NCBI GenBank assembly: GCA_014728125.1
Contig: WJMD01000094.1
Coordinates: forward strand, 1-41,576
DNA length: 41,576 nt
Direction: 5' to 3'
Source of the DNA: Candidatus Effluviviaceae Genus V sp.
Lineage (GTDB): Bacteria; Joyebacterota; Joyebacteria; Joyebacterales; Joyebacteraceae
Shown here: positions 28,174-41,576 of the stretch, one piece after another
Layout: each line of letters begins with the position of its first letter
Numbering within the stretch: position 1 is the stretch's first letter
The notes under the pieces: generated by a model
Told to the model about the DNA's origin: nothing
Databases searched by the model: none
Seen by the model: the letters and a program-made list of their open reading frames with translations, nothing else
Position numbers and translations under genes: made by a program

Positions 28174-29187
28174 CTACTCTCTGGGAACGTCGATCTCGCC
28201 GGCGATGATCGCGGCCCGCGCCTCTTCGACGGCGGTGATCATCTCTTTCGTCAGAAGAGCCTCGTTGTACTGGTCGACCGCGTAGCCGATGCCGTTGTCC
28301 TCCAGACCGAACTCTCGGACACCGCCCTCGAAGTTCCTCTCGACGACCGATTTGACGATCATGTAGACCGCGTTGTCAACGCGCTTGACCATGCTGGTCA
28401 GCACGTGACCGGGCGCCATGTAGTTCTGGTTCGAGTCGACGCCGATGGCGTACCGGCCCGTCTCCCGGGCCGCCTCGATGACACCGTTCCCGGTGCTGCC
28501 GGAGGCGTGGTAGATGACATCGACCCCTCTACCGTACTGAAGGAGGGCCAGCTCCTTGCCCTTCGCCGGGTCGGCGAAGGCCTGGGGCGTTGAGCCCGCG
28601 TACGCGACGGTCGTGGACACACGCGGGTTGGCATACTCGGCTCCCGCGACGAAGCCGGCCTCGAACCTGTGAATGAGCGGGATGTCCATCCCGCCGATGA
28701 AGCCGATGCGGTCTGTCTTCGTGAACTCCCCCGCGAGCACGCCGACGAGGAACGAGCCCTCCTCTTCCCGGAACGTGAGTCCCGCGAGGTTCGGAGGCAG
28801 CGTCTCGTCCGGCCGGACGTCGTAGTCCACACATGCGAACTTCGTCTCAGGATAGTCGGCGGCGACCGACCGGATGGAGTCGCTGAAAAGGAAACCGACG
28901 CCGATGATGAGATCGTATCCGGACTGCGCGAGCTTCCGGAGACCCGTCTCGCGGTCGGCATCCTGTCCGGGCTCGAACTCGGTGAACGTGACACCGAGTT
29001 CGTCGGCCGCCAGGAGGAGTCCCCTGTACGCCGAGTCGTTGAACGACTTGTCGCCCTTTCCACCGACGTCGAACACCATGCCGACCCTGACACCGTCGTG
29101 GTCGGCGCCGTCGGGCGCTTCGCCGCACCCGGTCACGCCAGCGACCAGCGCCGCGGCCACGAGGAGGAGCACGAGCTTCCTGTCCAT
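28174..29187 (-). CDS. BMP-family nucleoside-binding lipoprotein (PnrA/NupN-like)
   Basis: A 337-residue lipoprotein with lipobox VAGVTGC (Cys near 22). Typical PnrA/Med elements: RVGMVFDVGGKGDKSFNDSA, where the 'GGxxDKSFN' loop binds the ribose; DLIIGVGFLFSDSI; VDYDVRPDETLPPNLAGLTFREEEG; and GFIGGMDIPLIHRFEAGF. It also has VDVIYHASGSTGNGVIEAA and IGVDSNQNYMAPGHVLTSMVKRVDNAVY. These match purine-nucleoside receptors such as T. pallidum PnrA. Start: ATG 29185-29187 preceded by GGGGGTG; a GTG five codons upstream is less likely. It is first in the transporter set and follows the MFS gene by 38 bases. Adenosine, guanosine or inosine are likely ligands by family knowledge. Confidence 0.94.
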   Translation of the reverse strand: MDRKLVLLLVAAALVAGVTGCGEAPDGADHDGVRVGMVFDVGGKGDKSFNDSAYRGLLLAADELGVTFTEFEPGQDADRETGLRKLAQSGYDLIIGVGFLFSDSIRSVAADYPETKFACVDYDVRPDETLPPNLAGLTFREEEGSFLVGVLAGEFTKTDRIGFIGGMDIPLIHRFEAGFVAGAEYANPRVSTTVAYAGSTPQAFADPAKGKELALLQYGRGVDVIYHASGSTGNGVIEAARETGRYAIGVDSNQNYMAPGHVLTSMVKRVDNAVYMIVKSVVERNFEGGVREFGLEDNGIGYAVDQYNEALLTKEMITAVEEARAAIIAGEIDVPRE

Positions 29188-29225
29188 TGTCACCCCCGTC
29201 ACTTGACGTTGTGTCGAGACCCGGT

Positions 29226-30440
29226 TCAGCCGCTCGAGGCGGCCGGAACGTCGTCATCCTCTTCCTGCTCGATGCAGGCGAGCGCGCCGGACGCCGCGGC
29301 CCTCCGCATCAGGAAGGTGTAGGCCACAAGACCGCCGACGACAACGAGAGAACCACCCTTGAAGACGAAGTCAAGGCCGAAGATGCCCTCGGCGAAGCCG
29401 CCGGCCAGGGGCCCCAGAATGAGCCCGATGCTCATGCCGCTGTTGAAGAGCGCCATGACGGTCCCCATGCCGTTGAACCTCCGCCCGCACTGCGTCGCCG
29501 TCGCCATCGCCGAAGGGAACCCGAGGGCGCTGGCCATGCCGGTGGCCATCTGCAGGAAGAACAGATGGGTCACGGTCCTGCAGTACGGTATGGCGAAGAT
29601 CACGGCCGCGCTCGCCGCCATGCCGATGCCCATCAGAACGTGCTTCGGGGCGCGGTCGGCGAGCTTCCCGAAGGGGATCTGCATGAAGCCGGCGAGCATG
29701 ATGTTCGTGGCGAGCAGGACGCCGATCATCGTGAGCGAGGCGCCGCGTTCCTCAGCGACGAACGGCAGGAACGGGATGACGACACCCCGCCCCAGGGCGA
29801 TCGCGATGCGATAGATGAGCAGCGCCCCGACGATGCTGTGCGACAGGACCGACCGGACGGGCGCCCGCCGCTTCCACCGTTCGCGGTGCAGGCCCAGCTC
29901 CGGCAGCAGGAAGATCACCAGAATGAGCGCCACGGCCGAGAACGACCCCATGGCGTAGAAGACCGCCCCCATGCCGAAGCGGTCCGCGAGGCCGCCTCCC
30001 AGAAGGGGCCCGAGCCCGAACGCCGTGAAGAGCGAGACCATGAAGGTCCCCATGAACGAGCCCTCGCGACCCCTGGGCGCAATGTCCCCGATGTAGGCCT
30101 GGGCGACGGGGATGACCATCCCGGCCGACGCTCCATGAAGGACACGAACCAGAATGAGATGCCAGGCGCTGTCGGCGTTCAGGTACCCAAGCGAGAAGAT
30201 CGAGTAGGCCGCCAGGCCGATCGCGAGGAAGAGCTTCCTGCCGAAGCGGTCGGAGAGTCGACCGATGAACGGAACGAGGAGGAGCCGCGCCGTGGAGAAC
30301 CCGGCGAAGATCATGCCCAGCGAGAGCCCTGCCGCGCCGAGGTCGCGGGCGTAGAGCGGCAGAAGCGGGCCGATGAACCCCACGCCGATCGTCGACGCGA
30401 ACATGGCTATGAAGAGAATCGTGTAGACGCGCCGGTGCAC
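29226..30440 (-). CDS. MFS transporter of unknown substrate
   Basis: A 404-residue major facilitator with twelve predicted membrane segments. The loop 2-3 motif GRLSDRFGRKLFLA is canonical, and the equivalent in the second half reads GKLADRAPKHVLMG. Segment 4 has the motif VRVLHGASAGMVIPVAQAY and ALDE-like loop QAYIGDIAPRGREG. The protein resembles drug/metabolite efflux families more than sugar carriers, but substrate cannot be deduced. Start: GTG 30438-30440 with GGAGG four bases upstream; the open frame reaches 30590 but overlaps adenine deaminase and is low-complexity. It lies between adenine deaminase and the nucleoside-binding lipoprotein, so export or import of a purine base such as hypoxanthine is a possible role (inference). 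Confidence 0.9.
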   Translation of the reverse strand: MHRRVYTILFIAMFASTIGVGFIGPLLPLYARDLGAAGLSLGMIFAGFSTARLLLVPFIGRLSDRFGRKLFLAIGLAAYSIFSLGYLNADSAWHLILVRVLHGASAGMVIPVAQAYIGDIAPRGREGSFMGTFMVSLFTAFGLGPLLGGGLADRFGMGAVFYAMGSFSAVALILVIFLLPELGLHRERWKRRAPVRSVLSHSIVGALLIYRIAIALGRGVVIPFLPFVAEERGASLTMIGVLLATNIMLAGFMQIPFGKLADRAPKHVLMGIGMAASAAVIFAIPYCRTVTHLFFLQMATGMASALGFPSAMATATQCGRRFNGMGTVMALFNSGMSIGLILGPLAGGFAEGIFGLDFVFKGGSLVVVGGLVAYTFLMRRAAASGALACIEQEEDDDVPAASSG

Positions 30441-30474
30441 GACACCTCCGGGCCAGCTTCGGCGTGCCTGCGCT

Positions 30475-32187
30475 CTAGACGAAGAGGTCGACGAACTCGA
30501 AGGCGTTGACATCGACGAGCCCGAGGTCGGTGACCTTGAGCTCGGGGATGACGGGGAGCGCAAGGAACGACATCGCCATAAACGGGTCATCGAGCGTCGA
30601 ACCCAGGTCGCGGGCAGCGTCGTGAACCCGCTCGAGTCCGTCCACGACGTCCTCGAGCCCCGACTCGCTCATGAGGCCGGCGATCGGGAGCGGAAGCCCC
30701 TCGACAAGCTCTCCGTTCCGGACGACAGCCAGTCCGCCCTTCATCTTCGAGATCTCGACGACTGCGGCCATCATCTCCTCACTCGAGGTGCCGACGACCA
30801 CGATATTATGGGAGTCGTGCGCCACCGAGCTGGCGATCGCTCCGTGCTTCAGACCGAACCCGCGGACCACGGCCTTCCCCACGGTGTCGCTGGCGTGATG
30901 GCGTTCGACGACCGCGACCGGAAGGAGGTCCCGCTCGAGGTCCGGCACAAGTTCGCCGTTCGAGACCTTCGCGTCCTCTACGCGCGCCCGGGTGATGATC
31001 TGGTCGGGGACGAGGTCGATGACGCGGATGCGGCTGCCCGTCGCCTCGATGCGGAAGTCCTCCGGCGACACCCACTTGATGTTGATCGAGCTCCTGAGGC
31101 TCGGGAGCGGTATCTCAGGCTTCGGGACGACCATCTCGCCGTCCTCGGCAACGACCTTCCCGCCCTTGAGGACCTTCCTCACGATGAACTTCTCGAGGTC
31201 GTCGGCGACGACGAGATCGGCCGTGTAACCGGGCGCGATCGCGCCGAGGTCGTTCAGGCGGTAGTACTGTGCCGTGTTGATCGTCGCCATCCTGATGGCG
31301 GAGACGGGGTCGAGCCCCTCGCTGACGGCCAGACGGACCATGTGGTCGATGTGCCCCTTCTCGAGGAGGTCTTTCGGGTGGCGGTCATCGGTGGCGAAGA
31401 AGCAGCGCGACAGGTTCTCGCACGTGACGGCCGGCAGGAGGTCCTTGAGGTTCTTCGTCACTGAGCCTTCACGGAGCATGATGTGCATGCCGAGGCGGAG
31501 CTTCTCGAGAACCTCGTCCGTCGAGGTGCTCTCGTGGTCGGACGTGACGCCCGTGGCGAGATAGGCGTTCAGGTCCTTCCCCGACAGACCGGGTGCGTGC
31601 CCGTCGATCCGCTTCCGGTCCTGGGTCATGGTGATCTTATCGAGAAGCCCCTCGTCCTCTCGGAGCACGCCCGGGAAGTTCATCACCTCTCCGAGACCAA
31701 GGACCCACTTCTCGGCCAGGAGCGGGTAGAGATCGAAGCCCTTGAGGTCCGCGCCCCCGGTCTCGAAGTGAGTGGCTGGAACGCAGGACGGGAGCATGAC
31801 GAAGACGTTGACGGGTCCGAACTTGCTGGAGTTCAGCATGTAGTGGATGCCCTCGAGACCATGGACGTTCGCGATCTCGTGCGGATCGGCCACGACCGAT
31901 GTCGTGCCGCGGGGTGCGACGGAGCGCGCGAACTCCTGGACGGTCACCATCGTGCTCTCGATGTGCATGTGGCCGTCGATGAGACCGGGAAGAAGATAGG
32001 CGCCCTTGAGATCGAGCTCCCGACGTCCCTTGTAGTCTCCGACGCCTGCGATGCGGGTCCCGCTGATAGCGACGTCGCCCTCGTGGATCTCGGACGAGAA
32101 GACATTGACGATCCGACCGTTCTTGAGAACAAGGTCGGCCGGCATGGTCCCCCGCGCCACGCGGATCATCCTGACGATGTCTTTCAT
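30475..32187 (-). CDS. ade: Adenine deaminase
   Basis: A 570-residue cytoplasmic amidohydrolase converting adenine to hypoxanthine and ammonia; length is normal for the family. Metal-site motifs are intact: GHMHIESTM (72-80, His73 and His75), ADPHEIANVHG (100-110), GLGEVMNF with Glu167, DGHAPGLSG (195-203, His197), SDHES (217-221, His218) and TDDRHP (266-271, Asp267). The Ade-specific C-terminal domain follows (about 420-570; VVGTSSEEMMAAVVEISKMKGGLAVV). Start: ATG 32185-32187 with GAGGAG; the open frame to 32295 has no such signal. It lies downstream of carbamate kinase and a MocA-like protein and upstream of nucleoside transport genes, so it fits purine base salvage or degradation. Confidence 0.96.
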   Translation of the reverse strand: MKDIVRMIRVARGTMPADLVLKNGRIVNVFSSEIHEGDVAISGTRIAGVGDYKGRRELDLKGAYLLPGLIDGHMHIESTMVTVQEFARSVAPRGTTSVVADPHEIANVHGLEGIHYMLNSSKFGPVNVFVMLPSCVPATHFETGGADLKGFDLYPLLAEKWVLGLGEVMNFPGVLREDEGLLDKITMTQDRKRIDGHAPGLSGKDLNAYLATGVTSDHESTSTDEVLEKLRLGMHIMLREGSVTKNLKDLLPAVTCENLSRCFFATDDRHPKDLLEKGHIDHMVRLAVSEGLDPVSAIRMATINTAQYYRLNDLGAIAPGYTADLVVADDLEKFIVRKVLKGGKVVAEDGEMVVPKPEIPLPSLRSSINIKWVSPEDFRIEATGSRIRVIDLVPDQIITRARVEDAKVSNGELVPDLERDLLPVAVVERHHASDTVGKAVVRGFGLKHGAIASSVAHDSHNIVVVGTSSEEMMAAVVEISKMKGGLAVVRNGELVEGLPLPIAGLMSESGLEDVVDGLERVHDAARDLGSTLDDPFMAMSFLALPVIPELKVTDLGLVDVNAFEFVDLFV

Positions 32188-32291
32188 GCGCTCCTCGCAG
32201 CCCTTCGTTCGTCGGTTCTCCGTCTGATGTCCGATCCGGAGTGCGCCTCGTCCGCGTCCCGCACCTGCATGCGGCGGCGGCAGCCCGCCGG

Positions 32292-33233
32292 TCACGCCGT
32301 CATGTGCGTCCCGGTCTCGCCGTCGAGCGCCCGCCCGATGGATTCGGGCGAGGTGATGATGACCTCCTCGCCTCCGCCGTCGATGAAGTGGATTCCGGCC
32401 AGGATCTTCGGCCCCATGCTCCCCGGAGGGAAGTGACCCTCGTCGCAGTAGACGCGGGCGTCGGACACCGATAGACGCGGGAGCCGGGCCTCGTTCTCCT
32501 CACCGAAGTGCAGGGAGACCTGCTCCACGGCCGTCGAGATGAGCAGGAGCTGCGCGCCGATCGAGTTCCCGATGAGTCTGGACGCGTGGTCCTTGTCGAT
32601 GACGGCCTCGATGCCCTGGAGCTCCCCGTGCCGGTTCTCGACCACGGGCACTCCGCCGCCGCCGACCGCTATCACGATCGACCCGGCCTCGAGCAAGCGC
32701 TTGATGGAACGCGCCTCCACAACACGTTTCGGCATCGGTGACGGCACGACGCGCCGCCACCCGCGATTGGCGTCCTCGACGACGTCCCAGCCCGCTTCGT
32801 CCCGCTTCCGCTCGGCTTCCTCGCGGGTGTAGAACGGGCCGATCGGCTTCGTCGGCTCATCGAACGCGGGGTCGTCCGGGTCGACGACGACCTGCGTGAC
32901 GACCGTCACGACCTCCCGGTCGATGCTCCGCGCGCCGAGCTCTGCGCTCAGCACCTGCTGGAGCATGTATCCCATGCTGCCCTGCGTATCCGCGACACAA
33001 GAGTCGAGGGGAATCGGGGGAACCACGTGCGCCGCCATCTCAGCGCGGAGGAGGATACCGCCGACCTGAGGGCCGTTCCCGTGGGTCACCACGATGTCGT
33101 AGCCCCGTGCGATCATGTCGGCGATGTGGGCCGCTGTCTCGCGCGCGTTGGCGAACTGCTCGGACACGGTCCCCCGCTGTCCCGGCTTCGTGATGGAGTT
33201 CCCGCCGACGGCGACAACTGCGAGTTTGCTCAT
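32292..33233 (-). CDS. arcC: Carbamate kinase
   Basis: A 313-residue cytoplasmic amino-acid-kinase-fold enzyme that makes ATP and carbamate from carbamoyl phosphate and ADP (reversible). Motifs: VAVGGNSI near 8-13, THGNGPQVG (50-58), SMGYMLQQ, TQVVVDPDDPAF, the insert KPIGPFYTREEAE, IAVGGGGVPVVE, VIDKDHAS with the catalytic Lys, and C-terminal FPPGSMGPKI. Length is typical. Start: ATG 33231-33233 with GGGAG. No arginine deiminase or ornithine carbamoyltransferase is nearby. Instead it sits with adenine deaminase and a MocA-like protein, like the E. coli yqeA carbamate kinase inside the yge/yqe purine-degradation region, so carbamoyl phosphate may come from purine ring breakdown (inference). 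Confidence 0.95.
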   Translation of the reverse strand: MSKLAVVAVGGNSITKPGQRGTVSEQFANARETAAHIADMIARGYDIVVTHGNGPQVGGILLRAEMAAHVVPPIPLDSCVADTQGSMGYMLQQVLSAELGARSIDREVVTVVTQVVVDPDDPAFDEPTKPIGPFYTREEAERKRDEAGWDVVEDANRGWRRVVPSPMPKRVVEARSIKRLLEAGSIVIAVGGGGVPVVENRHGELQGIEAVIDKDHASRLIGNSIGAQLLLISTAVEQVSLHFGEENEARLPRLSVSDARVYCDEGHFPPGSMGPKILAGIHFIDGGGEEVIITSPESIGRALDGETGTHMTA

Positions 33234-33301
33234 CCCTGCTCCCGTGAGATCCCCGCGGCGTCCACCTCGCCGTCCCGGACCGCCGGTCCCTGAAAGCGAG
33301 C

Positions 33302-33327
33302 GGCGTGGCCGCAGCAGCAGCCACGCC
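33302..33327 (-). repeat. Perfect 8-bp hairpin between mocA-like gene and carbamate kinase
   Basis: GGCGTGGC and GCCACGCC pair around a 10-base GCA-repeat loop, 22 bases after the stop of the MocA-like gene. No U-tract follows, so it could be an attenuating or mRNA-processing hairpin within the transcript. Confidence 0.45.
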
Positions 33328-33349
33328 CGACGCGGAACGCCCGGAGAAC

Positions 33350-33943
33350 CTAGAGCCCTGCCTTCACAGCCTGATAGTCGTCCATCGTGTCGACGTCGAT
33401 CAGGAAGCCTTCGTCGTCCCGCTCGACCTCCACGACCGCCTCGCCCTCTTTCTCGACGATGTCGCGGGCGCCGGAGTCGCCGCTCAGGCTCTCCAGCTCC
33501 TCGCGGTAGGACCCGTCGAACAGCTGCGGGTGTCCTCGCCGGCCGTCGAGCACGGGGACCGCGATGCGCGCCCCCTGCGAGTGAGCGTCGACCAGAGCGT
33601 CGACATCGTCCGTCGTGAAGAAGGGCGTGTCGCCGGGCACGATGAGTATGGGAGAAGCCTCCCACGAGCAGGCGCTGACGCCCTGTCCGATGGACGATCC
33701 GACACCCTCTGTGTAGCGGGCGTTGCCGACCAGCTCGAGTCGCTCGTCGAGCACTCCGGCCAACGAGGTGCCCACCTCGTCCGCCTCCGCACCCAGGACG
33801 ACGACCACCTCGTCGATCTTTTTCGAATCCAGAAGGCGGCCGACGATCTGTCTGATCATCGGCACTCCGTCGATCGGGAGGACCTCCTTCTTCATCCCAA
33901 GGCGTTTCGACTCACCGGCTGCGAGTACGACTGCTGATGCCAT
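33350..33943 (-). CDS. MocA/MobA-like nucleotidyltransferase
   Basis: A 197-residue cytoplasmic protein of the NTP-transferase (MobA-like) family. Motifs: VVLAAGESKRLGMKKEVLPI at the N-terminus (nucleotide loop), VVVLGAEADEV, NARYTEGVGSSIGQGV, VPGDTPFFT with the metal-binding Asp, RRGHPQLF, GDSGARD and a C-terminal DVDTMDDY. This order is that of MocA (CTP:molybdopterin cytidylyltransferase) and of YgfJ in the E. coli purine-degradation region. It would mature a molybdenum hydroxylase such as xanthine dehydrogenase, but no such enzyme is encoded in the window. Start: ATG 33941-33943 with GAGGGG. It lies between the aminotransferase and carbamate kinase genes. A sugar-phosphate nucleotidyltransferase role is less likely. 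Confidence 0.88.
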   Translation of the reverse strand: MASAVVLAAGESKRLGMKKEVLPIDGVPMIRQIVGRLLDSKKIDEVVVVLGAEADEVGTSLAGVLDERLELVGNARYTEGVGSSIGQGVSACSWEASPILIVPGDTPFFTTDDVDALVDAHSQGARIAVPVLDGRRGHPQLFDGSYREELESLSGDSGARDIVEKEGEAVVEVERDDEGFLIDVDTMDDYQAVKAGL

Positions 33944-37144: not shown

Positions 37145-37573
37145 TCACTCCCCGCCCAGCGAGAGCGCCATGAGCCCGGTCGCACCGTCGAGCCTGCGCT
37201 TCGCCTTCGCGTCCGTCTTGAGGATGACGATCTCGTTGGTGACGTTGACCTTGCCCTTCGAGAGGTGTCCGGCGACGGCCTCCTTTGTGTGCCGGGCCAG
37301 CACGGCATGGACGTGGAAGTGCCAGTCGCCGTCCTGCTTGATGATGTTGCCCGTCATCGACACGAGTTCCATGGGCTCGGGGAAGAGCACCGCGGAGTAC
37401 TCCCCGTTCTTGACGAAGAAGTTGAGCTCCGCCTGCTTGAGCATGCCGATACCGGAGAGCACGACACCGGTCCGGACGTCGCATGCTTCGGCTACGGCCT
37501 TGAGCTGTTCGTAGAGATCCTCATCCTGATGAAGCCGCACGAGGATCAGATCGCCGGACTGCGTGTACTCCAT
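37145..37573 (-). CDS. DUF296 / PPC-domain protein
   Basis: A 142-residue single-domain protein of the plants-and-prokaryotes-conserved (PPC, DUF296) family. Marks in order: TGVVLSGIGMLKQAELNFF (about 36-54), EPMELVSMTGNIIKQDGDWHFHVHAVLA (about 66-93) with the His-x-His pair, and AGHLSKGKVNVTNEIVIL. In plants the domain accompanies AT-hooks; bacterial single-domain members form trimers with conserved His residues that may bind metal or a small ligand. Function is not established. It is the first gene of the long minus-strand series. ATG 37571-37573 follows GGGG at four bases. Coupling to the transketolase-like pair hints at a role with that enzyme, for instance as ligand sensor or detoxifying partner (speculation). 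Confidence 0.88.
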   Translation of the reverse strand: MEYTQSGDLILVRLHQDEDLYEQLKAVAEACDVRTGVVLSGIGMLKQAELNFFVKNGEYSAVLFPEPMELVSMTGNIIKQDGDWHFHVHAVLARHTKEAVAGHLSKGKVNVTNEIVILKTDAKAKRRLDGATGLMALSLGGE

Positions 37574-37709
37574 CGTTCCCCACCCCCCGTTCCGAGCCGC
37601 GCATCGACCGTCGACGCCGTGAGACGTGCGACAGCCGGTAGCGACGCAAAGACGCGTCCGCCGGAGCCGCTGTGGTTCGGGACCCAGGGACGGCTCCGGA
37701 GCGAAATAG

Positions 37710-37725
37710 CGCCTAGCAGTAGGCG
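37710..37725. promoter_or_regulatory. Inverted repeat, possible operator near the start of the minus-strand transcript
   Basis: CGCCTA-GCAG-TAGGCG is a perfect 6-base inverted repeat located about 8-23 bases downstream of the predicted minus-strand start. The half-site GCCTA/TAGGC recurs a third time in the -10 region (37741-37745). This arrangement is typical of a repressor site overlapping a promoter, but no regulator gene is in the window. Confidence 0.45.
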
Positions 37726-37739
37726 TTTCAGAACTGATA

Positions 37740-37768
37740 AGCCTACGCTACGGAACGCGGCATGTCAA
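37740..37768 (-). promoter_or_regulatory. Promoter for the DUF296-transketolase-purine gene series
   Basis: On the minus strand a perfect TTGACA (37763-37768), a 17-base spacer and TAGGCT (37740-37745), a weak -10 box, suggesting an activator or a regulated promoter. The predicted start is near 37733, giving a leader of about 160 bases before the ATG at 37573. Confidence 0.55.
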
Positions 37769-37896
37769 CGTGATTCGCCCTGGCGGGCCCGTGATGGGGC
37801 GCACGCTTGCGAGACTTCGAGCAAACGTTAGGATGAGTAACTGAGTCAGATTCGATGAGGGGGGGGGAGTAGCTGGGAGCTTCCGGCGACGTGTGC

Positions 37897-37902
37897 TATA
37901 CT
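37897..37902 (+). promoter_or_regulatory. Extended -10 promoter of the beta-helix gene
   Basis: TGC-TATACT on the plus strand, identical over nine bases to the extended -10 at 6858-6866 (minus). The -35 region (TGGGAG, 17 bases upstream) is poor, as tolerated with an extended -10. The start would fall near 37909, only about 29 bases before the ATG. Confidence 0.6.
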
Positions 37903-37909
37903 CCAGATG

Positions 37910-37929
37910 CCTCCCCCTGTGAGAGGAGG
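37910..37929 (+). promoter_or_regulatory. Possible ribosome-site-masking hairpin
   Basis: CCTCC (37910-37914) can pair with the ribosome-binding GGAGG (37925-37929), ten bases apart, at the very 5' end of the predicted mRNA. This could limit translation of the beta-helix gene or may be fortuitous; the stem is only five pairs. Confidence 0.35.
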
Positions 37930-37937
37930 GACATGCC

Positions 37938-39266
37938 ATGAAGTGCTGCCACAGAGCGGTGATCATCCTCGCCCTGATTCCCGCCGTCGCCGCAGCCACG
38001 ACGCACACGGTCGACGACTCCGGCACCCAGACCTACGTGACGATCGGAGAGGCCTTCGCGGCCGCCTCTTCGGGCGACACCATTCTCGTCTCCCCCGGCA
38101 CCTACACGGGCCCCGGCAACCGCCGGATCGACTTCGTGGGCAGGGACCTCGTGCTCAAGTCGACATCGGGCGCGGGCGTCACGGTGATCGACTGCGAGGG
38201 ACAAGGGCCGGCACTCGTTCTCGAGCGAGGCGAGTCGGACCACTGCGCCGTCGAGGGCTTCACGTTCCAGAACGGCAGCGGCTATGAGTTCGGCGATACG
38301 GGGCTCGGCCTCGAAGGCGGCGCGATCTACCTGTGGGGCGCCGACCCGCTCATCATCGACTGTGAGTTCGTGTCGAACGAGGCCGATTACGGCGGCGCCA
38401 TCTTCTCGGGACCGTACTCGTCCCCGAAGATCTACTACTGCAACTTCGCCGACAACCATGCGAACGACTACGGCGGCGCCGTGTACACATATCAGGCCTC
38501 TCCTGAGTTCCGCACCTGCGAGTTCACCGACAACACGGCCAACCTCAACGGCGGGGCAATCTCGTCGAAGACCGAATCGGCTATCGTCGTGTCGAGCTGC
38601 GACTTCACCGGGAACGTGGCCAGTGAGGGCGGCGCCGTCTTCGCGGGCTCGACGCCTCCCGAAGAGGAGATACGCTTTCCCACGACGGCCTCCATCGTCA
38701 AGAACTCCCACTTCTATGAAAACGAGGCCAACCTGGGGGGCGCGCTCTTCATCAGCGGCTTCTCCGCCACGGTCGTCAACTTCTGCACAATCGCCGAGAA
38801 CACGGCCGACCGGGGAGGAGGACTGTACGCCGTCACGAAATCCGAGCGGACGCCGGTCATCGAGAACTGCACGTTCGCGCTGAACTCCGCCCGGTACGGC
38901 GCCGGCATCTACTCGAAGGCCGACGTGACCTACGAGTTCATGTCCGTCAAGAACACCCTGCTCGCGTTCAACACCGGCGGAGGCGGCGCCATCCACCGCG
39001 AGGACTACTCGGCGCTCGAGACCACGCGCTGCGTGGCGTACGGCAACGAGGGCGGAGACGACCTCTGGGGCGAGGACGTCCTGGTCGACGACCCGCTCTT
39101 CTGCGACATGGGATCCAGGAACTTCCGACTCTGCTCGAACTCGGTCTGCATCAAGTCGAACAACCCGTGGGACTTCCTCATCGGGTCGGGCTACGAGGGG
39201 TGCGACGCGTGCACCTCGCCGGTTCAGGATGTGTCGTGGGGATCGATCAAGGCGATCTACCGGTGA
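37938..39266 (+). CDS. Secreted right-handed beta-helix protein with Pmp-like repeats and WGxIKA tag
   Basis: A 442-residue exported protein, the only plus-strand gene. The signal peptide ends near residue 20. The start of the helix, YVTIGEAFAAASSGDTILVSPGTYTG spread over 33-58, is the usual N-cap of parallel beta-helices. Seven or eight coils follow with paired motifs GGAI/GGAV/GGAL and FxxN (FVSN, FADN, FTDN, FTGN, FYEN, FALN), as in chlamydial polymorphic membrane proteins. Most coils carry one Cys at the same place (DCEF, YCNF, TCEF, SCDF, FCTI, NCTF), which would stack as a ladder. There is no autotransporter barrel or membrane anchor; the end is SPVQDVSWGSIKAIYR, nearly the same as in the lamin-tail protein at 2985-3590. 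Start: ATG with GGAGG eight bases upstream. Ligand or adhesion role unknown. Confidence 0.88.
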   Translation: MKCCHRAVIILALIPAVAAATTHTVDDSGTQTYVTIGEAFAAASSGDTILVSPGTYTGPGNRRIDFVGRDLVLKSTSGAGVTVIDCEGQGPALVLERGESDHCAVEGFTFQNGSGYEFGDTGLGLEGGAIYLWGADPLIIDCEFVSNEADYGGAIFSGPYSSPKIYYCNFADNHANDYGGAVYTYQASPEFRTCEFTDNTANLNGGAISSKTESAIVVSSCDFTGNVASEGGAVFAGSTPPEEEIRFPTTASIVKNSHFYENEANLGGALFISGFSATVVNFCTIAENTADRGGGLYAVTKSERTPVIENCTFALNSARYGAGIYSKADVTYEFMSVKNTLLAFNTGGGGAIHREDYSALETTRCVAYGNEGGDDLWGEDVLVDDPLFCDMGSRNFRLCSNSVCIKSNNPWDFLIGSGYEGCDACTSPVQDVSWGSIKAIYR

Positions 39267-39371: not shown

Positions 39372-40784
39372 CTACCGCACGCCGGGCCGCTGACAGACGG
39401 TCTTCCTCGGGACGAACGCCCCATGGGAAGGGGCCCCCACCAGCCGTCGGTTCTCGACCACCCAGACGCCGCGGACCATCGTCGCCACGGGCCATCCGGT
39501 CAGCGCCCCGGCGTCGTACACGGCGTAGTCCGAGTGACCGCCGACGACGTCAGGGGTCGCGTCGAGCGTCAGCTCCGGGTCGAGAATGACGAGGTCGGCG
39601 TCCGCCCCCTCACGGATGGCGCCCTTCCTCGGGTAGAGTCCGAAGATCTCCGAGGGCTGTGTCGCGATCAGGTCGACGAGCTCGTTCTCGGTCATCCGTC
39701 CCTCGCGGACACCGGCAGTCCACAGCACAGGGAGCAGCGTGCCGATCGACGGCACGCCCGGCGGAATCCGCCGAAAGTCGTCGGAGCCCTCGTCCTTCTC
39801 GTCCGCGGTGAAGGAGCAGTGGTCGCTCGCGACGACCTGAACGAACCCGTCCTCGATCCCCTGCCAGAGCGCCTCCCTGTGCGCACTGCCGCGGAGCGGC
39901 GGAAGCGTCGCGAAGCGATGTCCGTCTGACCGCTGAAGCAGGTCCTCGTCGAGCACCAGGTAGTGCGATGCCGTCTGACAGTAGACGTCGACGCCGAGGT
40001 CGATCGCCTCTTCGGCCGCAGTCAGCGCCTCCCCGGTCGATACGTTGGCGATGCACACGGGGGCGTCGGCCTGGAAGGCGGCGCGAAGCGTACGCGCCAC
40101 GGCCTCACCCTCAGCGTAGCTGGGGCGCGACGCGGCCAGCGCGCGGGCCCCCAGCCGACCCTTCTCCGCAAGGCGGCCGGTTCTGCGCCTGGTCAACCAG
40201 CCGGTCTCGCTCCGCACAGAGACGAGGGCCCCCTCGCGCGAGGATTCCAGCAGGAGACCGTAAAGCTCATCGTCCCCGAGGGCCGTCGGGTCATCGATGC
40301 CGCCCGTGTTCGCAACGAGGCTGGGTGCCCCGAGCTCAACCAGGTCCGCGATCTCGCCGTCAGAGCGCTCTTCGATCCGGGTGAACCCCGCGTGGAACGC
40401 GAAGTCGACGTGCGAGACGCCCGTCGCCTCGAGCACGGCCGCATCGACCGCGTCGGGGAGCGACTGTCCCTTGACCGGATAGGCGTGCGCCATGAAGGTC
40501 GTGACCCCACCCAGCGCCGCCTCCCCCGCCGTGTCCCCGAAGCCCGACGACTCGTGCCCCGAGTGCTCGACCCCCACGTGCGTTCTGACGTCGACGGCTC
40601 CCGGCAGGACGAGCATGCCGCGGGCGTCGAAGCGTTCTGCGTCCCTCGGGACCTCGATGTGCCGACCGACGGCCTTGATCGTCCCGTCCTCGATGAGGAC
40701 GGACGCGTTGAAGGAGTCGATCGGGCCGACGACCCGGCCGCCCTCAATGACGATGCTCCTCGCAGTCGTTCTCTCCCGGCTCAT
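39372..40784 (-). CDS. Dihydropyrimidinase/hydantoinase homologue, metal ligands mostly lost
   Basis: A 470-residue cytoplasmic cyclic-amidohydrolase homologue. The fold is well conserved: IVIEGGRVVGPIDSFNASVL, GGVTTFMAHA, SRPSYAEGEAVAR, QTASHYLVLDEDLL, LPPLRGSAHREALW, VVASDHCSFT, IATQPSEIFGLYPRKGAI and GADADLVILDP. The active site is not. HxH is RTH (Arg67, His69); the carboxylated-Lys region GxxSLKVFMAY reads GAPSLVANTGG (Val157); HAEN reads RSET (Arg191); VHVS reads ANVS (Asn247); only His69 and Asp321 remain of six ligands. It is therefore probably a non-catalytic relative, like CRMPs or pseudo-dihydroorotases, or has a new site. Closest by motif is the YgeZ/HyuA branch. ATG 40782-40784 overlaps the hydrolase stop (ATGA) and follows GAGGG. 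Confidence 0.9.
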   Translation of the reverse strand: MSRERTTARSIVIEGGRVVGPIDSFNASVLIEDGTIKAVGRHIEVPRDAERFDARGMLVLPGAVDVRTHVGVEHSGHESSGFGDTAGEAALGGVTTFMAHAYPVKGQSLPDAVDAAVLEATGVSHVDFAFHAGFTRIEERSDGEIADLVELGAPSLVANTGGIDDPTALGDDELYGLLLESSREGALVSVRSETGWLTRRRTGRLAEKGRLGARALAASRPSYAEGEAVARTLRAAFQADAPVCIANVSTGEALTAAEEAIDLGVDVYCQTASHYLVLDEDLLQRSDGHRFATLPPLRGSAHREALWQGIEDGFVQVVASDHCSFTADEKDEGSDDFRRIPPGVPSIGTLLPVLWTAGVREGRMTENELVDLIATQPSEIFGLYPRKGAIREGADADLVILDPELTLDATPDVVGGHSDYAVYDAGALTGWPVATMVRGVWVVENRRLVGAPSHGAFVPRKTVCQRPGVR

Positions 40785-41576
40785 CGGGATGCCCTCTGTC
40801 CGGCCGCGTCGACGAAGCCGACGATCGCCCGGACCAGCTCAACCTCGTGTCCCCAGTAGACGTGGTTCGCACCGGATATCACGACGCACGATGCCTCGCC
40901 TCCGAGGTGCGACGCCACGAGCTCGGCTGCCCGTGCCGGGTCGATCGTCACCGCTTCCTCGACGTCCCCCATGGTCACGAGCGCCGGAACGCTCAGCTTC
41001 TCGATGCGGTCGTAGTCGCCCTCGTCGCCCTGGCGCACAGCGAAGACATCGGTCACGGACGGGTCGCCGTAGAGACTCACCAGCGATGCGGCGGAGACGG
41101 GATGGTCCCGACCAGCGGTGATGAGCTCGTCACCCCTTCCGGCCTCGACGAACTCCCGGGCCTCGCTCACGACGGCCTCGAACCGGCCTTCTGTCCGCTG
41201 ATCGAGCAGCCCGAACATGTCCGGCGGGGATATCAGGACGATGCCGCGTACGCCGTCCTCTCCTCGCTCGCTCAGGTAGTGCACGACACGCAGCGTTCCC
41301 AGGCTGTGTCCTGAGAACCAGACCGACTCAAAGCCCCGGTCTCTGACATGGCCGACGTACGCATCGATGTCATCGAGCGTTCGCTCGAAGAGATCGTACG
41401 CGGCCCCGCCCGGGACCGTGGTCGTCCCCGACCCAGAGCCGCTCAGGTTGTCGGCCACGTAGTCGTGACCGCGGTTGTTGACGGCGAGCATCGCCACGCC
41501 GGCCGACGCGAGCGCGTCGCCCATCTCGCTGACGAACCGGTTCTCGTAGAACGTGCCCGCGTAGCCGTGGACGTGA
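40781..41576 (-). CDS. Alpha/beta-hydrolase, N-terminus cut by window edge
   Basis: At least 264 residues of an alpha/beta-hydrolase-fold enzyme; the frame is open to the window end with HVHGYAGTFYENRFVSEMG, where the His-Gly pair marks the oxyanion region, so the true start lies outside. The nucleophile elbow is GHSLG (Ser in WFSGHSLGTLRVVHY), a likely acid is in VTMGDVEEAV, and the catalytic His in SGANHVYWGHE. A cap domain with Glu-rich helices (GLLDQRTEGRFEAVVSEAREF) sits between. This resembles esterase/lipase members of the DUF1749-like group; the substrate is unknown. It overlaps the amidohydrolase homologue by four bases and is translated from the same mRNA, so the two may act together. 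Confidence 0.85.
   Translation of the reverse strand, partial: HVHGYAGTFYENRFVSEMGDALASAGVAMLAVNNRGHDYVADNLSGSGSGTTTVPGGAAYDLFERTLDDIDAYVGHVRDRGFESVWFSGHSLGTLRVVHYLSERGEDGVRGIVLISPPDMFGLLDQRTEGRFEAVVSEAREFVEAGRGDELITAGRDHPVSAASLVSLYGDPSVTDVFAVRQGDEGDYDRIEKLSVPALVTMGDVEEAVTIDPARAAELVASHLGGEASCVVISGANHVYWGHEVELVRAIVGFVDAAGQRASR

Follow-up and report, generated by a model that had tools for sequence, protein, structure and literature searches.

The window, that is, the whole stretch of 41,576 nucleotides analysed here from the genome of Candidatus Effluviviaceae Genus V sp., carries on its minus strand (39372..40784) a homologue of hydantoinases and dihydropyrimidinases in which four of the six metal ligands and the catalytic Tyr have been replaced. 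In our preferred reading, to which we give a probability of roughly 0.6, this former hydantoinase/dihydropyrimidinase is a pseudoenzyme left behind once its pathway was lost, under a constraint that is relaxed but not absent. The window belongs to contig C94 of a single metagenome-assembled genome (2.52 Mb in 190 contigs, with a completeness of 97.6% according to the tool), and the sample of the phylum comprised 20 species of one family, with the genus of the window represented by this genome alone.

The open reading frame starts with ATG and encodes 470 amino acids, open throughout, with zero stops or frameshifts; the absence of a frameshift had already been pointed out in an earlier note on this DNA. 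The protein matches hydantoinases and dihydropyrimidinases across its full length, and its best solved relative is 4tqt. The AlphaFold2 model is a confident barrel (pLDDT 93, pTM 0.93), although models of this kind hardly register point losses, and the top Foldseek match is the dihydropyrimidinase 3sfw, with a TM score of 0.93. Its TIGR02033 score is 349.6 bits, below the equivalog cut-off of 393.25, whereas the three phylum orthologues tested against the same profile scored 433-448 bits.

The ligand columns were read from an alignment of the window protein with 15 phylum orthologues, HyuA of E. coli and distant hydantoinases. Arg67 (codon AGA, 40584..40586, minus strand, as for all the residues that follow) stands for the first His of the HxH motif, Val157 (GTT, 40314..40316) for the carboxylated Lys, Arg191 (CGG, 40212..40214) for the His of HxEN and Asn247 (AAC, 40044..40046) for the His of VHVS, so that the six columns read H67R, H69, K157V, H191R, H247N and D321. 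Only His69 (40578..40580) and Asp321 (39822..39824), the latter a ligand and general base, are still present, and Gly162 (GGC, 40299..40301) occupies the place of the catalytic Tyr. All these replacements had been called correctly in the earlier note, and the alignment with the 15 orthologues, HyuA and the distant hydantoinases placed no substitute His or Lys at any of these columns. The protein thus combines the barrel fold of about 460 amino acids seen in active D-hydantoinases and dihydropyrimidinases with two of their six ligands, no catalytic Tyr and a profile score under the family threshold, and would qualify, on sequence and model, as a pseudo-amidohydrolase: a homologous fold with no working metal site. 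Standard two-metal hydrolysis by this protein seems very unlikely.

A different chemistry might still be served by such a pocket. The Tyr that is invariant in the full-length phylum orthologues is replaced by His100 (40485..40487), where barrel strand 2 of the model ends, a possible remodelled pocket residue. One could then picture an active enzyme with a pocket formed by R67, H69, H100, R191, N247 and D321, which would use one-metal or metal-free chemistry or bind an anionic ligand; H69 and D321 were kept though free to change, and the change of Y100 to His and of two His to Arg falls within one pocket. We regard this as improbable, since the loss of substrate-loop residues and the alteration of the ETCP motif (E270Q, C272A, P273S) resemble decay, not redesign, and the use of a single metal is conjecture.

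The loss can be placed within the phylum. A hydantoinase orthologue occurs in 15 of the 19 other species, at 48-57% identity to the window protein; 13 of the 15 cover the whole protein and the other two only part of it (that of G011 begins just before HxH, and that of G017 is split across two contigs, leaving the H247 column uncovered). As all the ligand positions that are visible are intact in 15/15 orthologues, the loss is confined to the lineage of the window, and the ligand-losing variant is found in one genome only among the 16 phylum genomes with the gene. Among these sequences, ligand loss is specific to one genus-level lineage. No functional hydantoinase paralogue was found elsewhere in the window genome, which has a dihydroorotase only.

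What the ancestral protein did is suggested by the genes that surround it in the relatives. Where their contigs span the region, the gene order runs from an alpha/beta hydrolase through the hydantoinase and, on the opposite strand, a gene for a secreted beta-helix protein to ssnA, a threonine-synthase-like PLP gene, an xdhC-like gene, a PCC gene, two transketolase halves and an aminotransferase; the SsnA and PreA assignments are above their cut-offs. The arrangement varies: genus g5 has the hydrolase-hydantoinase pair on a different contig from the ssnA block, G002 has four consecutive genes on one strand (a PreT-like gene, preA, hydrolase and hydantoinase), and in G001 preA adjoins the hydrolase. 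SsnA and PreA are present in most relatives. Across the phylum we thus observed a variant SsnA cluster (e.g., L048:3522-6711, L052:11609-14858 and L053:10799-13422) made of ssnA, the threonine-synthase-like PLP gene, the xdhC-like gene, the hydantoinase and the alpha/beta hydrolase, with the PreT-like gene and preA in some genomes. In reductive urate degradation, SsnA, the marker of the pathway, and HyuA catalyse successive steps, the PLP enzyme YgeX is the last to act, and a dihydroorotate-dehydrogenase-type protein, UacX, can stand in for YgfK (PMC12507026). Our own search for the YgfK family matched glutamate-synthase-type proteins in every genome and control. The ring opened by the ancestral hydantoinase was, we infer, that of a reduced purine or pyrimidine, a HyuA-type and a pyrimidine-type role both fitting the neighbourhood.

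In the window genome the other genes of this pathway are missing. Between the gene for a PCC-domain protein (37145..37573, minus strand), on one flank, and that for the secreted beta-helix protein (37938..39266, plus strand), a syntenic marker beside the hydantoinase, a 364-bp gap (37574..37937) takes the place of the relatives' ssnA, PLP gene and xdhC-like gene, and no remnant of the block was found in it. In the whole genome there is no orthologue of SsnA (best match of 57 residues, E 2e-4), of the PLP gene (best 29%), of PreA (best 32%, a dihydroorotate-dehydrogenase-type protein) or of xdhC, whose sole match is a distant 48% paralogue, and we saw no PreT-like gene adjoining a preA. The genome therefore encodes neither SsnA nor a PreA/UacX-like reductase, one of which a reductive urate or pyrimidine cluster would be expected to carry. 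An assembly break as the cause was considered and rejected, because the gap left by ssnA, the PLP gene and xdhC is internal to the contig and holds no remnant. The tree of neighbouring genes places the window genome with G007 (71% support), a genome in which the pathway genes are present, and this argues for pathway loss over primitive absence, an interpretation that is favoured but not proven. In G009 the match to the xdhC-like gene (G009:C53:247-699, L098) contains an in-frame TGA, and the genome is also without ssnA, hydantoinase and hydrolase, perhaps another partial loss of the cluster. The window itself encodes a BMP-type substrate-binding protein (28174-29202), an adenine deaminase (30475-32295) and a carbamate kinase (32292-33665), and the genes of 28174-33665 suggest a residual nucleobase metabolism. 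The secreted protein at 37938-39266 and secreted proteins of relatives (e.g., L044_04) have a short motif at their ends, for example VSWGSIKAIYR or ATWGTIKALYR, that may be a sorting tag.

An artefact or a foreign gene, whether through assembly error, binning contamination or replacement by a distant xenologue, could be suspected from a long branch in a single metagenome-assembled genome. We find this highly improbable: the flanking gene order matches the relatives on both sides, contig C48 (L091, G000:C48) continues the hydrolase gene through an exact 141-bp overlap with window positions 41436-41576, the C-terminal CQRPG-R tail is, within the alignment, common to the phylum orthologues only, and the many independent codon changes have left the frame open.

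The earlier note had described the rest of the protein as well conserved, which does not hold as stated. The mean identity of the window hydantoinase to its orthologues is 50%, against about 71% among the orthologues themselves, and its terminal branch measures 0.99 where the next longest is 0.30. For the hydrolase the identities are 48% and 60% and the branches 0.94 and 0.40; other neighbours are closer to normal, and for the aminotransferase the terminal branch of the window genome is 0.19, compared with 0.23 for G005. When distances are scaled to four neighbouring genes, the hydantoinase gives 3.65 with the window genome versus 1.84 without it, with separate ranges, and the hydrolase 3.73 versus 2.32, with ranges that overlap slightly. 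The window hydantoinase is the fastest-evolving copy, at about twice the expected rate. Among 177 sites that are invariant in the 12 full-length orthologues used for this count, 48 (27%) are changed in the window protein, whereas leave-one-out comparisons gave 0-7%. These changes are enriched within three residues of the ligand and substrate positions (17/35 vs 31/142, p = 0.002, the best of five window widths tried, the others giving 0.006-0.036).

Constraint nevertheless has not vanished. The protein keeps 129 of the 177 invariant sites, 24 of the 28 invariant glycines and 90% of the hydrophobic columns, and has zero internal indels with respect to the orthologues. In simulations, neutral drift to an equal divergence preserved about 70-73% of the hydrophobic columns and led to an expectation of 9-10 stops, and some 100 neutral changes already brought the probability of zero stops to 0.015-0.05. 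A fully neutral pseudogene is rejected on these grounds, given no stops where 9-10 were expected if all differences were neutral, and the reading frame shows none of the stops, frameshifts or internal deletions of a pseudogene. The frame and the hydrophobic core have thus been preserved by selection for most of the divergence, and the best reading of the sequences is that constraint on the hydantoinase is relaxed but not absent.

The gene downstream of which the hydantoinase begins offers one possible reason for this persistence. An alpha/beta hydrolase, of which the window holds the 3' 264 codons (40781..41575, minus strand), has its 5' part on contig C48, and joining the contigs supplied its N-terminus. 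Its stop overlaps the start of the hydantoinase as ATGA, so the translational coupling claimed previously is real in architecture. Neither a relative of solved structure nor an NCBIfam match was found for this protein; its conserved S123, D219 and H270, likely a catalytic triad, are all kept, and it may represent an unrecognised step of the variant SsnA cluster. The dead hydantoinase may be kept as a non-catalytic partner that assembles with, stabilises or regulates this hydrolase, an explanation we hold to be possible, though doubtful. The two genes overlap, they are adjacent in 13 of the 14 other genomes with a visible upstream side, the hydrolase is missing from all four phylum genomes that have no hydantoinase, and both genes have survived the loss of the pathway, the one with its fold, frame and core and the other with its three conserved residues. 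There is also a bacterial precedent: the pseudo-dihydroorotase of class A2 ATCase has no activity of its own, yet ATCase activity depends on it (PMC7053772). However, the association is inherited from the ancestor and is found just as much with intact, active-looking hydantoinases, and therefore is no evidence that the dead form took on a new joint function; moreover, G008 has the hydantoinase without the hydrolase, and the hydrolase is itself accelerated. The working partnership that the earlier note had put forward thus rests on an association that is real and phylum-wide, without being tied to the variant: a survey of whether the variant always neighbours the hydrolase found the variant in one genome only and the hydrolase beside intact hydantoinases too.

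The note had also invoked selection for something other than standard hydrolysis. Selection has kept frame and core, yet the disappearance of ssnA, the PLP enzyme, the xdhC orthologue and preA from the genome accounts more simply for the lost active site than a new positive role would. In our preferred scenario, the ancestor would have performed a HyuA-type ring-opening step in reductive purine or pyrimidine breakdown; the other pathway genes would then have been lost in the window lineage, ending the supply of substrate, and selection on the metal site would have lapsed without it, allowing the replacement of four ligands and the catalytic Tyr. A binuclear metal centre of the usual kind could then no longer form, and the barrel, encoded in one unit with the hydrolase, would still be folded and under weakened selection. 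We infer the inactivity, the pathway substrate and the order of events with pathway loss first, the sequences fitting either order and the sampled relatives being too distant for dN/dS. Two observations weigh against a pure leftover. The frame free of stops and internal indels, together with the retention of 90% of the hydrophobic columns, indicates that the gene has not been free-running for long, and some role may persist; and the hydrolase, with its likely triad, is retained beside the dead hydantoinase. That the hydantoinase became, after the deletion of the pathway, a non-catalytic subunit or scaffold of the coupled hydrolase, in an independent bacterial parallel to the CRMPs, is nonetheless rather unlikely.

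Several known systems help to place the protein. With D-hydantoinases and dihydropyrimidinases (TIGR02033; PDB 3sfw, 1k1d and 4tqt) it shares length, barrel and beta-sandwich, at 32-34% identity, and departs from them at the active site. The phylum orthologues have the ligand set of HyuA of the E. coli reductive urate cluster, which opens the products of SsnA, and sit near SsnA, unlike the window protein, without its ligands and with ssnA, the PLP gene and preA gone from the genome. A parallel in kind is offered by the CRMP/DPYSL proteins: CRMP-4, of dihydropyrimidinase fold, has two of six ligands left and a Leu in place of the Lys (PMC4051505), an aliphatic replacement as in the window protein. 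These are, however, an old gene family of animal signalling, whereas the window protein belongs to one bacterial lineage, with a recent loss, an independent origin and no long C-terminal tail. Like the pseudo-dihydroorotase, which works with another enzyme (PMC7053772), it is a bacterial dead cyclic amidohydrolase; unlike that known obligate subunit, it has a partner role that is putative, with the alpha/beta hydrolase as candidate. We found no paper on hydantoinase pseudoenzymes. An independent ligand-less hydantoinase homologue was also observed in a two-species phylum (L024, G056:C28:27345-28661, and L106, G061:C50:6191-7507), where the six columns read F, S, K, H, P and G. The two copies are under purifying selection (dN/dS 0.12 between the two species), and therefore ligand-less hydantoinases can be maintained; the G056 copy passes TIGR02033 with 409.9 bits against the cut-off of 393.25, and a dihydropyrimidinase label based on this profile would mislead for this homologue.

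The protein would be a bacterial, lineage-specific addition to the pseudo-amidohydrolases already known. With the visible ligands intact in 15 orthologues, one lineage without them and the pathway genes missing at the locus, it offers a well-polarised case of an enzyme dying in place. Annotation by fold only would credit this genome with a hydantoinase that it probably lacks, and the protein provides a testable bacterial case for asking if it is a partner that keeps dead amidohydrolases in a genome.
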